From Halorubrum salinarum (GTDB taxonomy: Archaea; Halobacteriota; Halobacteria; Halobacteriales; Haloferacaceae), in contig NZ_CP053941.1 in NCBI RefSeq assembly GCF_013267195.1, positions 124,001 to 188,000 on the forward strand: a stretch of DNA of 64,000 bases, read 5' to 3'. Position 1 is the first letter of the stretch, and each line of letters begins with the position of its first letter. The notes under the pieces were generated by a model. That model saw only the letters and a list, made by a program, of their open reading frames with translations, was not told the origin of the DNA and did not search any database. The translations under genes and the position numbers were made by a program. Of this stretch, positions 18,450-21,537 are shown piece by piece.

Positions 18450-18515
18450 CGAGCGACGCCCCCGACGCGCGGAGCCGGCGGCGCGTTGTTAAGCGAGCGC
18501 GCTCTCGACGACTGA

Positions 18516-18545
18516 GTTATTAATTCTGTCTTGTGAAATAATAAC
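18516..18545. promoter_or_regulatory. Inverted-repeat operator overlapping the metal transporter promoter
   Basis: Left arm GTTATTAATTC (18516-18526) and right arm GAAATAATAAC (18535-18545) match at 10 of 11 positions as an inverted repeat around an 8-base spacer. The right arm supplies the AT-rich element 32-42 bases before the znuA ATG, so a protein bound here would cover the TATA/BRE area. A metal-responsive repressor (DtxR/SirR type) is a reasonable guess from context. Confidence 0.6.
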
Positions 18546-18576
18546 GTTTTTCTGTTAATCCACGGTACGGATCGGT

Positions 18577-19626
18577 ATGACTCACTCACGGCGGTCGGTA
18601 CTGCGGCGCGGCGCCGGGCTCGCGGCCGCGGGGGCGGCGGCGTCGCTGGCGGGATGCTCGGGCGGGGGAACCGGCGGTTCCGAGGGGTTCGACTCGGGGT
18701 ACGCGGCCTTCTTCACCCTCAACGACTGGGCGAACGAGGTCGCGGGCGAGCACGCGAGCTTCGAGGACCCGGTCGACGTGGGACAGCTCGGCCACGGGTG
18801 GACGCCCGACGGGACGCTCGCCGCGGAGGTCGCCGCGACGGACGCCTTCGTCTACCTCGACAGCCCGGAGTTCTCGTGGGCGCAGGACCTCGCGGAGACG
18901 CTGGAGAGCGACTACGACTCCGTCGCCGTGGTCGACGTGCTCGACGGGCTGGAAGACGACCTGCTCGACTGGGACCACAACCACGGCGGAGAGGGCGGCG
19001 ACCACGGCGACGAGAGCCACGACGGGGAAGGGGACTCCCACGAGGGCGACGATCACGAGGGCGACGACCACGGCGGCGAAGGGGGGACCCGGTACGACCC
19101 CCACGTCTGGACCGACCCGGTCCTCGCGGCCGAGATGGTCGAGTCGATCGCCGCGGGGCTCGGCGAGGCGGACCCGGAGCACGCCGACGCGTACGCCGCC
19201 AACGCCGACTCGTACGCCGACGAACTCGGCGCGGTCGACGACGCGTTCGAGTCGATCGCCGAGGACGCCGCGCGCGACGTGGCGGTGCTGGCGGGCCACA
19301 ACTCCTTCCAGTACTTAGAGGCGCGCTACGGGTTCCGGCTCCACTCGCCGGTCGGGGTCTCGCCGCAGAACGAGCCGACGCAGTCAGAGATCGCCGACAC
19401 GATCGACCTCGTCGACTCGGCGGGGATCGACGTGGTGTTATACGACCACTTCCAGTCGCCCCGGCTCGCCGAGTCGATCGTAGAGAACAGCGACGCGACG
19501 GAGGCGGTCCCCGTCACGCCCGCCGGGGGGACGACGCGGGAGTGGAACGACGCCGGCTACGGCTACCTCGAACAGATGACCGAGATCAACGTCCCCGCCT
19601 TCGAGCGGGCGTTCGGCGCGCAGTGA
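18577..19626 (+). CDS. znuA: Metal ABC transporter substrate-binding lipoprotein (ZnuA-like)
   Basis: 349 residues. A twin-arginine signal (RRSVLRRG) and lipobox LAGC with Cys27 mark an exported, lipid-anchored protein. A long His/Asp/Glu/Gly loop at about 133-170 is the hallmark of zinc-type cluster 9 binding proteins. Metal-ligand segments include GHGWTPD (near 72), DPHVWTDP (near 175) and GHNSFQYLEARYG (near 239). It delivers zinc or manganese to the permease encoded downstream. An inverted repeat over the promoter suggests metal control. Confidence 0.88.
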   Translation: MTHSRRSVLRRGAGLAAAGAAASLAGCSGGGTGGSEGFDSGYAAFFTLNDWANEVAGEHASFEDPVDVGQLGHGWTPDGTLAAEVAATDAFVYLDSPEFSWAQDLAETLESDYDSVAVVDVLDGLEDDLLDWDHNHGGEGGDHGDESHDGEGDSHEGDDHEGDDHGGEGGTRYDPHVWTDPVLAAEMVESIAAGLGEADPEHADAYAANADSYADELGAVDDAFESIAEDAARDVAVLAGHNSFQYLEARYGFRLHSPVGVSPQNEPTQSEIADTIDLVDSAGIDVVLYDHFQSPRLAESIVENSDATEAVPVTPAGGTTREWNDAGYGYLEQMTEINVPAFERAFGAQ

Positions 19627-19726
19627 GCCGGTCGACGCGCGCGCCGACCGGCTCGGCGCCCGGCGACGGCGGCGCCGCCGGACTAAAAGAGCTAAACGTG
19701 CGGCCGACCCATACCGGAGACACGCA

Positions 19727-20467
19727 GTGAGCGCAATCGTCGACCTCGACGGCGTGACGTTCGCCTACGGCGACACCGTCGCCGTGAGAGACGTCTCCCT
19801 CACGGTCGAGGAGGGTGACTTCCTCGGGCTGGTCGGGCCGAACGGCTCCGGGAAGACCACGCTCCTCCACCTCATGCTCGGCCTCCACGAGCCGGACGCG
19901 GGGTCGGTCGAGCTGTTCGGCCGACCGGTGGCGGAGTTCGACGAGGGCGGTCGGATCGGCTACGTCTCGCAGAAGGCGACGAGCCAGGGCGGCGCGATGC
20001 CGGTCACCGTCCGCGAGTGCGTCACCATGGGTCGGTTCGCGCACGCCGGGCGGGGCCGGCTCTCCGCGGCCGACCGGGCCGCCGTCGCGGACGCCATCGA
20101 GACGGTCGGGATCGGCGACCTGGCCGACCGGCTGGTCTCCGAGCTCTCGGGCGGACAGAAGCAGCGCGCGTACATTGCGCGCGCCCTGGCGAGCGACGCC
20201 GACCTGCTCGCGCTCGACGAGCCGACGGTCGGCGTCGACGCCGAGTCGCGCGACGCCTTCTACGCGCTCCTCGACGAGCTCAACGACGACGGGATCACGA
20301 TCATCCTCATCGAGCACGACATCGGCGTCGTCACCAACCGCGCCGACCGCATCGCCTGTATCAACACCGAGCTGTACCACCACGGCGACACCGAGTCGTT
20401 CGTCGAGAGCGAGGCCCTCGCCGAGGCGTACGGCACGACTGGGCAGGTCGTCCACCACCACCACTGA
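19727..20467 (+). CDS. znuC: Metal ABC transporter ATP-binding protein (ZnuC-like)
   Basis: 246 residues with Walker A GPNGSGKTT (about 38-46), signature LSGGQKQR (about 140), Walker B LLALDEPTVGVD (about 161) and the His switch in IEHDIGVV. It ends in a short His run (VVHHHH) that could bind metal. The start is a GTG at 19727; a ctaaac box about 30 bases upstream hints at an extra promoter within the 100-base gap after znuA. It drives import through ZnuB. Confidence 0.9.
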   Translation: MSAIVDLDGVTFAYGDTVAVRDVSLTVEEGDFLGLVGPNGSGKTTLLHLMLGLHEPDAGSVELFGRPVAEFDEGGRIGYVSQKATSQGGAMPVTVRECVTMGRFAHAGRGRLSAADRAAVADAIETVGIGDLADRLVSELSGGQKQRAYIARALASDADLLALDEPTVGVDAESRDAFYALLDELNDDGITIILIEHDIGVVTNRADRIACINTELYHHGDTESFVESEALAEAYGTTGQVVHHHH

Positions 20468-21537
20468 TGAGCCGGAGCAGCGCCGCTGACGGCGAGGGAG
20501 AGACCGCGGCCGTCGAGGGATCGACCCGCGACCGCCGGCGTCGCGTCGAACTCGCCGGCGTCGGCCTCACCGCGTTCGTCGCGGTCGGCATGCTCGGGTT
20601 CCTCCTGCTCTACTGGGCGCAGGACCTCCCGGTCGCGAGCGATCTCTACGCCGCGTTCCGCTCGCTCGGCCGGGGCATGGACGCCGCGCTCGGCACCAAC
20701 GTGTTCCGGCACCCGATCATGTGGCAGTCGATGGCGGTGGGCGTGCTCGTCGGCGTCGTCGCCCCGCTCGTCGGCTCGTTCCTCGTCCACCGCGAGATGG
20801 CGCTGATCGGCGAGACGCTCGCGCACACCGCGTTCGCCGGCGTCGCGGTCGGCATCCTCGTCACCTCCTCGACCGGGTGGAACGGGTCGCTGCTGCTCGT
20901 CGCGCTCGCGGTCGGCGTCCTCGGCGCGCTCGCGGTCCAGTGGCTCACGGAGCGCACCGACGCCTACGGCGACGTGCCCATCGCGATCATGCTCAGCGGG
21001 AGCTTCGCGGTCGGCACGCTGATCATCAGCTACGGCGACGGACTCACCGGCGTCAACATTCAGGGCTACCTGTTCGGGAACCTCGCGGTCGTCACGCCGG
21101 AGGGCGCACGCCTGATGGGCGCGCTCTCGCTCGCGGTCGTCGCGGGCGTGGCGCTGACGTACAAACAGCTCCTCTTCATCACCTTCGACGAGCAGGCCGC
21201 GCGGGTCGCCCAGCTGAACGTCACCGGCTACAACACCCTGCTGGTGGTGCTGACCGCGGTCGTCGTCGTCGGCGCGATGCAGGTGCTCGGTGTCATCCTC
21301 GTCGCCGCGATGCTGGTCGTCCCCGTCGCGGCCGCCTCGCAGGTCGCGCGGAGCTTCCGCGAGACGATGTACCTCGGCGTGATCTTCGGACAGTTGTCGG
21401 TGCTGGGCGGCTTCGCGATCTCGATCGGGTTCGGGCTGCCCTCCGGGGGATCGATCGTCGTCACGGCCATCGCGGTGTACCTCGCGAGCATTCTCGGCTC
21501 CGGGGCCTCCGGAACGCCCGTGTCGGCGCACGGCTGA
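20467..21537 (+). CDS. znuB: Metal ABC transporter permease (ZnuB-like)
   Basis: 356 residues with a charged N-terminal 30 residues and about nine hydrophobic helices of the ABC-3 family. FVHREMALIGETLAHTAFAGVAVG-type sequence near 105-130 is the family signature, and LYKQLLFITFDEQAARV follows later as the ATPase-coupling region. The ATG shares a base with the znuC stop. It forms the channel for zinc or manganese. The N-terminal tail is longer than in bacteria. Confidence 0.9.
   Translation: MSRSSAADGEGETAAVEGSTRDRRRRVELAGVGLTAFVAVGMLGFLLLYWAQDLPVASDLYAAFRSLGRGMDAALGTNVFRHPIMWQSMAVGVLVGVVAPLVGSFLVHREMALIGETLAHTAFAGVAVGILVTSSTGWNGSLLLVALAVGVLGALAVQWLTERTDAYGDVPIAIMLSGSFAVGTLIISYGDGLTGVNIQGYLFGNLAVVTPEGARLMGALSLAVVAGVALTYKQLLFITFDEQAARVAQLNVTGYNTLLVVLTAVVVVGAMQVLGVILVAAMLVVPVAAASQVARSFRETMYLGVIFGQLSVLGGFAISIGFGLPSGGSIVVTAIAVYLASILGSGASGTPVSAHG

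Follow-up and report, generated by a model that had tools for sequence, protein, structure and literature searches.

The window analyzed here, a stretch of 64 kb from Halorubrum salinarum (source genome G000; 3.34 Mb on three contigs), carries the operon znuA-znuC-znuB at positions 18577-21537. An AT-rich inverted repeat precedes it (Table 1). An earlier reading of this DNA from the sequence alone (hereafter the sequence-only reading) had placed this repeat ahead of a metal ABC operon of znuA type, in agreement with the three genes found directly downstream.

Table 1. Features of the znuACB locus and its promoter (window coordinates).
Feature	Position	Strand	Basis or remark
Half-site-like element GTTGTTAA, some 31 bp ahead of the left arm	18485..18492	+	Genus promoter comparison
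Candidate operator dyad GTTATTA-N16-TAATAAC (conserved form GTTRTTA-N16-TAAYAAC)	18516..18545	+	Sequence, conservation, pattern searches
Left arm GTTATTA	18516..18522	+	Sequence
Right arm TAATAAC, probable BRE position	18539..18545	+	Sequence
Probable TATA element GTTTTTC	18546..18552	+	Inferred from order promoters with CTTTTA/CTTATA at the same place
TCTGTTAATC, part of the genus-conserved TTTTCTRTTAA	18551..18560	+	Possible extra half-site
znuA, metal-binding lipoprotein, His-rich loop	18577..19626	+	Pfam ZnuA
znuC, ABC ATPase	19727..20467	+	
znuB, ABC-3 family permease	20467..21537	+	Start overlaps znuC stop

The repeat is composed of GTTATTAATTC (18516-18526) and GAAATAATAAC (18535-18545), which pair at 10 of 11 positions around the 8-base spacer TGTCTTGT, the sole mismatch being arm position 8. 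Re-reading of the sequence reproduced the pairing, spacer length and location exactly as described before. In its conserved form the dyad reads GTTRTTA-N16-TAAYAAC, and both arms of the window's copy are perfect. The arm centres are 23 bp apart, corresponding to roughly two helical turns, and the full dyad covers 30 bp, from -61 to -32 relative to the znuA ATG at 18577. Its prominence in a GC-rich region, also claimed previously, was confirmed by a GC content of 26% within 18516-18561 vs 71.3% for the whole window. In addition, the window contains 103 inverted repeats whose 11-base arms pair at 10 or more positions across a spacer of 3-20, and the dyad is the only one of them with at least eight A/T in either arm. 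Scanning both strands with the dyad pattern at up to three mismatches yielded one site in the 64-kb window and none in 100 dinucleotide shuffles. The core GTTRTTA-N16-TAAYAAC likewise matched once, with zero mismatches, compared with a mean of 0.10 matches at up to three mismatches in the shuffles, 9 of 100 of which contained at least one. Since the probable transcription start is downstream of the dyad, a reading as RNA hairpin was rejected.

The right arm is located directly upstream of the probable TATA element, which contains a T-run (18547-18551). Consequently, the dyad overlaps the BRE position and not the TATA box; from the previously suggested BRE/TATA overlap only the BRE side was retained. 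Two TTRTTAA-like units, GTTGTTAA before the left arm and TCTGTTAATC after the TATA element, are kept in most of the aligned genus promoters, and a unit related to GTTGTTAA was seen by eye upstream in several promoters of the order.

A ZnuA match was obtained in all 52 Halorubrum genomes searched, 49 of which constitute the genus promoter set; not included were G011 and G020, whose gene is split between contigs, and G029, which has a different dyad. Promoters were scored for GTTRTTA-Nn-TAAYAAC with n = 4-30 and at most 2 of 14 mismatches. At this level, 47 of the 49 genus promoters contain the dyad at -60/-61 in front of ZnuA-family genes, with a dinucleotide shuffle background of 0.05 per set. 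The exceptions are L019, with three mismatches in register, and L038, with its best match out of register. Irrespective of register, spacer 16 was found in 48 of 49 promoters. Lesser peaks at spacers 13 (37), 26 (25), 30 (20), 27 (13), and 19 (10) presumably reflect additional TTRTTAA-like units present in these promoters. The promoter of the ZnuA-like gene of G029 (L142, G029:C15) harbors the different dyad CTTGGTAT-N12-ATACCAAG.

Alignment of 44 of the 30-base pieces (A1) revealed 12 invariant columns, seven of them in the arms, one beside the left arm and four in the spacer (T17, T19, A21, and A22). This spacer conservation is a property of the genus set, not of the order set, in which only the column beside the right arm reaches 95%. 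Columns 18 and 27 (inner right half) covary weakly (n = 49: G-C 20, G-T 10, A-T 8, A-C 7, others 4). A flipped centre in L038, considered as a hint at symmetry, was set aside as a single sequence. A profile (R1) built from the genus pieces other than L038 and L055-L058 (44 of 49) matched the promoter of znuA in 46 of the 52 genus genomes with E up to 0.01, in 44 of them by construction. G011 and G020 each gave a match, and G051 showed two partial matches at this promoter. Ten places elsewhere, scoring 12-19 bits, were set aside. In four genus genomes (L127, L128, L129, and L132) an orthologous MFS sugar transporter gene has such a dyad-like sequence upstream, on the opposite strand, probably by chance or as site of another regulator. 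Furthermore, ZnuA paralogs occur in six genus genomes (L148-L153), five of them with several TTA-N-TAA units in the respective promoters; a gene near these paralogs looks to us like a corrin methyltransferase.

Extension of the analysis to the order was based on 146 genomes, 83 of them with ZnuA-family matches at E <= 1e-25, although some of the 83 may hold the paralogous type only. The 59 promoters evaluated represent a chosen part, namely those with N-terminal match, a few genomes contributing two. The dyad with spacer 16 and at most two mismatches was present in 52 of them, compared with 0.1 per set in dinucleotide shuffles (20 per promoter); the next spacer peaks were 19 (26), 13 (10), and 27 (10). 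Seven promoters exceeded two mismatches, two at the -30 register with three mismatches and five elsewhere. For two of the seven (L214 and L219), the true promoters may be located further off, since the 130 bases read resemble the His/Asp-rich coding end of the upstream gene. Absence of the dyad in front of znuA homologs had been named as a refutation of the sequence-only reading; the counts within genus and order leave it standing on this point.

In the order set the dyad appears in two registers, 40 times at -60/-61 and 12 times at -30 to -36, there covering TATA and start, with spacer 16 in both. Relative to the core promoter, the site is thus shifted as a whole. Directly after the right arm, 28 of the 40 promoters of the -60 class display CTTTTA or CTTATA. 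We infer this to be the TATA element, its distance fitting transcription that begins a few bases ahead of the ATG. This spacing agrees with the Haloferax volcanii znuA1 operon, for which a start site 4 nt upstream of the start codon is given (excerpt of PMC8155600). Since the right arm of the -60 class coincides with the BRE position, and the left arm of the -30 class with the place where a TATA box would sit, the sequence could be read as a mere core promoter (BRE/TATA) plus an upstream AT element with incidental symmetry. However, in the -60 class the left arm stops 55 or 54 bases short of the ATG, and each arm has several invariant columns among the order promoters of this class. In addition, the position is not fixed relative to the start, spacer 16 recurs in both registers and genome-wide, and the promoters of a paralogous operon in 20 genus genomes are devoid of the dyad. 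We consider this explanation highly improbable.

In genome-wide searches, the exact pattern GTTRTTA-N16-TAAYAAC was detected at 26 places in 146 genomes vs 4 for the reversed control, and the perfect form GTTATTA-N16-TAATAAC at 40 places in 392 genomes vs 2 for the reversed-pattern control. As many as 36 of the 40 perfect dyads precede ZnuA (23 of 24 loci tested with the ZnuA profile and 13 known from the promoters read), amounting to a near-restriction of the site to metal-uptake genes. The other perfect sites lie at a ZIP-like transporter gene in G378 (Pfam Zip 19.9 bits, cut-off 35.1), a divergent promoter of NikR/CobW type in G126 (L238, G126:C103:5798-5827), a gene for a His/Asp-rich lipoprotein without Pfam match immediately ahead of znuA in G072, and an NMT1-like binding protein gene in G059. 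In G127, a form of the dyad ends at the ATG of a ZIP-like gene whose product shares 62% identity with the G378 homologue (Pfam Zip 24.8 bits, below cut-off). Allowing spacers of 10-22 resulted in 63 places, 40 with N16 and 23 with the other twelve spacers (N10 2, N11 2, N12 1, N13 6, N14 1, N17 4, N19 5, N20 1, N22 1), compared with 25 for the reversed control with the thirteen spacers combined. Of the six N13 places, two (G187 and G084) are situated inside a degenerate N16 site.

Degenerate dyads were also encountered before a YqeC gene (G088:C46), before a gene for a rhodanese-domain lipoprotein (G084:C1:1100259) and about 0.3 kb from an FAD-protein gene (G145:C5), none with an evident zinc role. 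The by-eye likeness of the rhodanese lipoprotein to the His-rich lipoprotein of G072 was set aside, the two giving a weak match only, in the signal-peptide region. At nine loci (L321, L324-L330, and L333) with perfect dyad, a gene for a small Asp- or His/Asp-rich lipoprotein precedes znuA, possibly encoding a zinc-binding accessory. In G000 itself, TTATTAA-N13-AATAAYAA at up to three mismatches gave 29 matches on both strands vs 22 for the reversed control, so this mismatch level represents background. The only other place at up to one mismatch (C1:2389673, L060) precedes a DUF5518 gene.

Considering the conservation, the fixed spacer and the target genes, the dyad is very probably an operator for a metal-responsive regulator. 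The sequence-only reading had suggested a regulator of the DtxR/SirR type. The source genome encodes seven Fe_dep_repress matches, six over cut-off, and a DtxR-like regulator, ZntR, is predicted to control znuABC in Methanosarcina (excerpt of PMC2770081). Against binding of a DtxR/SirR-family repressor to the dyad stands a paralogous metal ABC operon (G000 C1:2101412 and downstream; L137 and L138, C1:2096500-2104000), which ends with a DtxR-family gene. Its promoter in G000 contains the palindrome TTAGAC-GA-GTCTAA, a probable operator of DtxR type (manganese?). Palindromes of the form TTAG-N6-CTAA are present in 15 of the 20 genus paralog promoters read and the dyad in none of the 20 (4 to 6 mismatches), which weakens the DtxR assignment. 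The dyad itself has no compact TTAG..CTAA core, and its 30 bp with arms about two turns apart are unlike a compact palindrome. Moreover, PMC3600143 describes zurM, zurA, and ycdH as Mn uptake genes and reports their control by SirR of Halobacterium. We regard a DtxR/SirR-type binder as improbable. The sequence-only reading is thereby partly supported, with respect to the operator and not to the regulator family; a regulator of NikR type is more likely, on evidence that is mixed.

Three NikR-family genes (NikR_C matches) are found in G000. One of them, termed NikR-A here (G000:C1:2050194-2050706), lies outside the window and is not linked to znuACB in this genome. It combines the domains RHH_1 and NikR_C and matches solved NikR sequences. 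Residues H77, H88, H90, and C96, which we take to be the NikR metal ligands (H, HxH, C), are kept in NikR-A of the four genomes aligned, and position 90 of the paralog NikR-B is C. Nickel sensing is the known role of NikR; NikR-A falls below all NCBIfam cut-offs for nickel NikR. A NikR_C protein is encoded as well in Haloferax volcanii, a species amenable to genetic manipulation. The third NikR-family gene of G000 (L141, G000:C2:206500-210500) is located beside a gene for a His-rich membrane-like protein without Pfam match, the pair possibly being a nickel regulator and its transporter.

NikR-A matches (E <= 1e-15) occur in 140 of the 146 order genomes, including all 83 with a ZnuA match, a distribution so wide that co-occurrence says little. 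NikR-A adjoins znuACB in at least six genomes of three genera. The two are convergent and abutting in G071, G092, and G160 and convergent in G129 and G137, and NikR-A is downstream on the same strand in G077. Four of the six linked operons found have the dyad within two mismatches (G071 0, G092 1, G160 1, and G129 2 mismatches); G137 has three mismatches, and the dyad was not found at up to three mismatches within the 6 kb read in G077. In G029 (L142), a NikR-A fragment adjoins the ZnuA-like gene with the different dyad across an N gap. NikR-family genes were thus read beside znuACB and once directly behind the dyad, the latter being the NikR-B promoter of G126 (L238) with its perfect site, in a 71%-complete genome. 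Its CobW-like neighbour has the zinc chaperone ZigA model as best match (421.7 bits, cut-off 600). Autoregulation of NikR-A through the same dyad was looked for in the 30 best-matching NikR-A loci and not found (4-6 mismatches in the promoters; L274 read from inside the gene).

Taken together, the NikR family is the best candidate binder of the dyad, with odds that we rate at somewhat better than even. The site could also be an operator bound by a zinc-sensing regulator of another family (Lrp/AsnC-, ArsR-, or TrmB-like, or another RHH protein). NikR-A promoters are without the site, the linked operon of G077 is without the dyad, and in G072 an AsnC-type regulator gene precedes the dyad by about 0.5 kb, a cupredoxin gene lying between them. 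Conversely, among the loci read, mostly for the ORFs near the site, the only regulator gene directly behind it belongs to the NikR family, and it is NikR-A that repeatedly adjoins the transporter operon. A regulator of another family appears rather unlikely to us, albeit less so than a DtxR/SirR protein.

The NikR assignment can be compared with known systems. E. coli NikR binds GTATGA-N16-TCATAC (excerpt of PMC7055735), and predicted NikR sites of delta-proteobacteria read GTGTTAC-N13/14-GTAACAC (excerpt of PMC545781). Like the NikR operators in these excerpts, the dyad is a long-spaced inverted repeat with short arms before a metal importer, and as in NikR systems, a protein with RHH and NikR_C domains is encoded; in at least six genomes its gene is linked to the transporter. 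The dyad differs by its AT-rich arms GTTRTTA/TAAYAAC and its span of 30 bp, 2-3 bp longer than the 27-28 bp of the cited sites, as well as by the ZnuA-type transporter as target, the archaeal BRE/TATA promoter and the metal, probably zinc.

According to an excerpt of PMC2770081, no Fur/Zur homologs were present in the archaeal genomes known in 2009. The dyad shares with bacterial Zur on znuABC the znu genes as target and, in one or two genomes each, a COG0523 GTPase and a ZIP-like transporter, yet as a long-spaced site it is unlike the Zur box. With ZntR of Methanosarcina it has in common that an archaeal znu operon and COG0523 are proposed as one regulon in the same excerpt. The proposed regulator family is another one here, and the DtxR-linked operon of the genus possesses its own palindrome. 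In H. volcanii, the sRNA s479 acts on the znuA-C-B operon through znuC1 mRNA (excerpt of PMC8155600). The dyad and s479 share this type of target, a haloarchaeal znuA-C-B operon, although s479 acts on mRNA; the word "promoter" is absent from the available text of that paper and a promoter dyad is not treated there. None of the open-licence titles listed concerned a haloarchaeal znu operator, and among these papers no description of zinc-uptake control in haloarchaea was found.

According to our proposed model, NikR-A, as a ribbon-helix-helix metalloregulator, would bind both arms when the metal (probably zinc) is plentiful. Bound NikR-A would cover the BRE (in the -30 class, TATA and start) and keep TFB/TBP off the promoter, so that znuACB would be repressed. 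Under metal shortage, NikR-A would be released and the transporter made. Zinc is the probable signal, judging from the target genes (His-rich ZnuA, ZIP-like, COG0523); nickel or cobalt may act instead. For the complete statement, i.e., that the dyad is the znuACB operator, is bound by NikR-A and mediates repression in presence of the metal, we consider the chances evenly balanced on the genomic data at hand. More tentatively still, and with some doubt on our side, a NikR-family zinc-uptake repressor might replace the missing Zur across Halobacteriales, with its operator on znuACB and, in some lineages, on genes for a ZIP-like transporter and a COG0523 GTPase. If true, a nickel-sensor family would have been reused for another metal. 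The fixed operator, together with the candidate regulator named here, makes the control of zinc uptake in haloarchaea directly testable.
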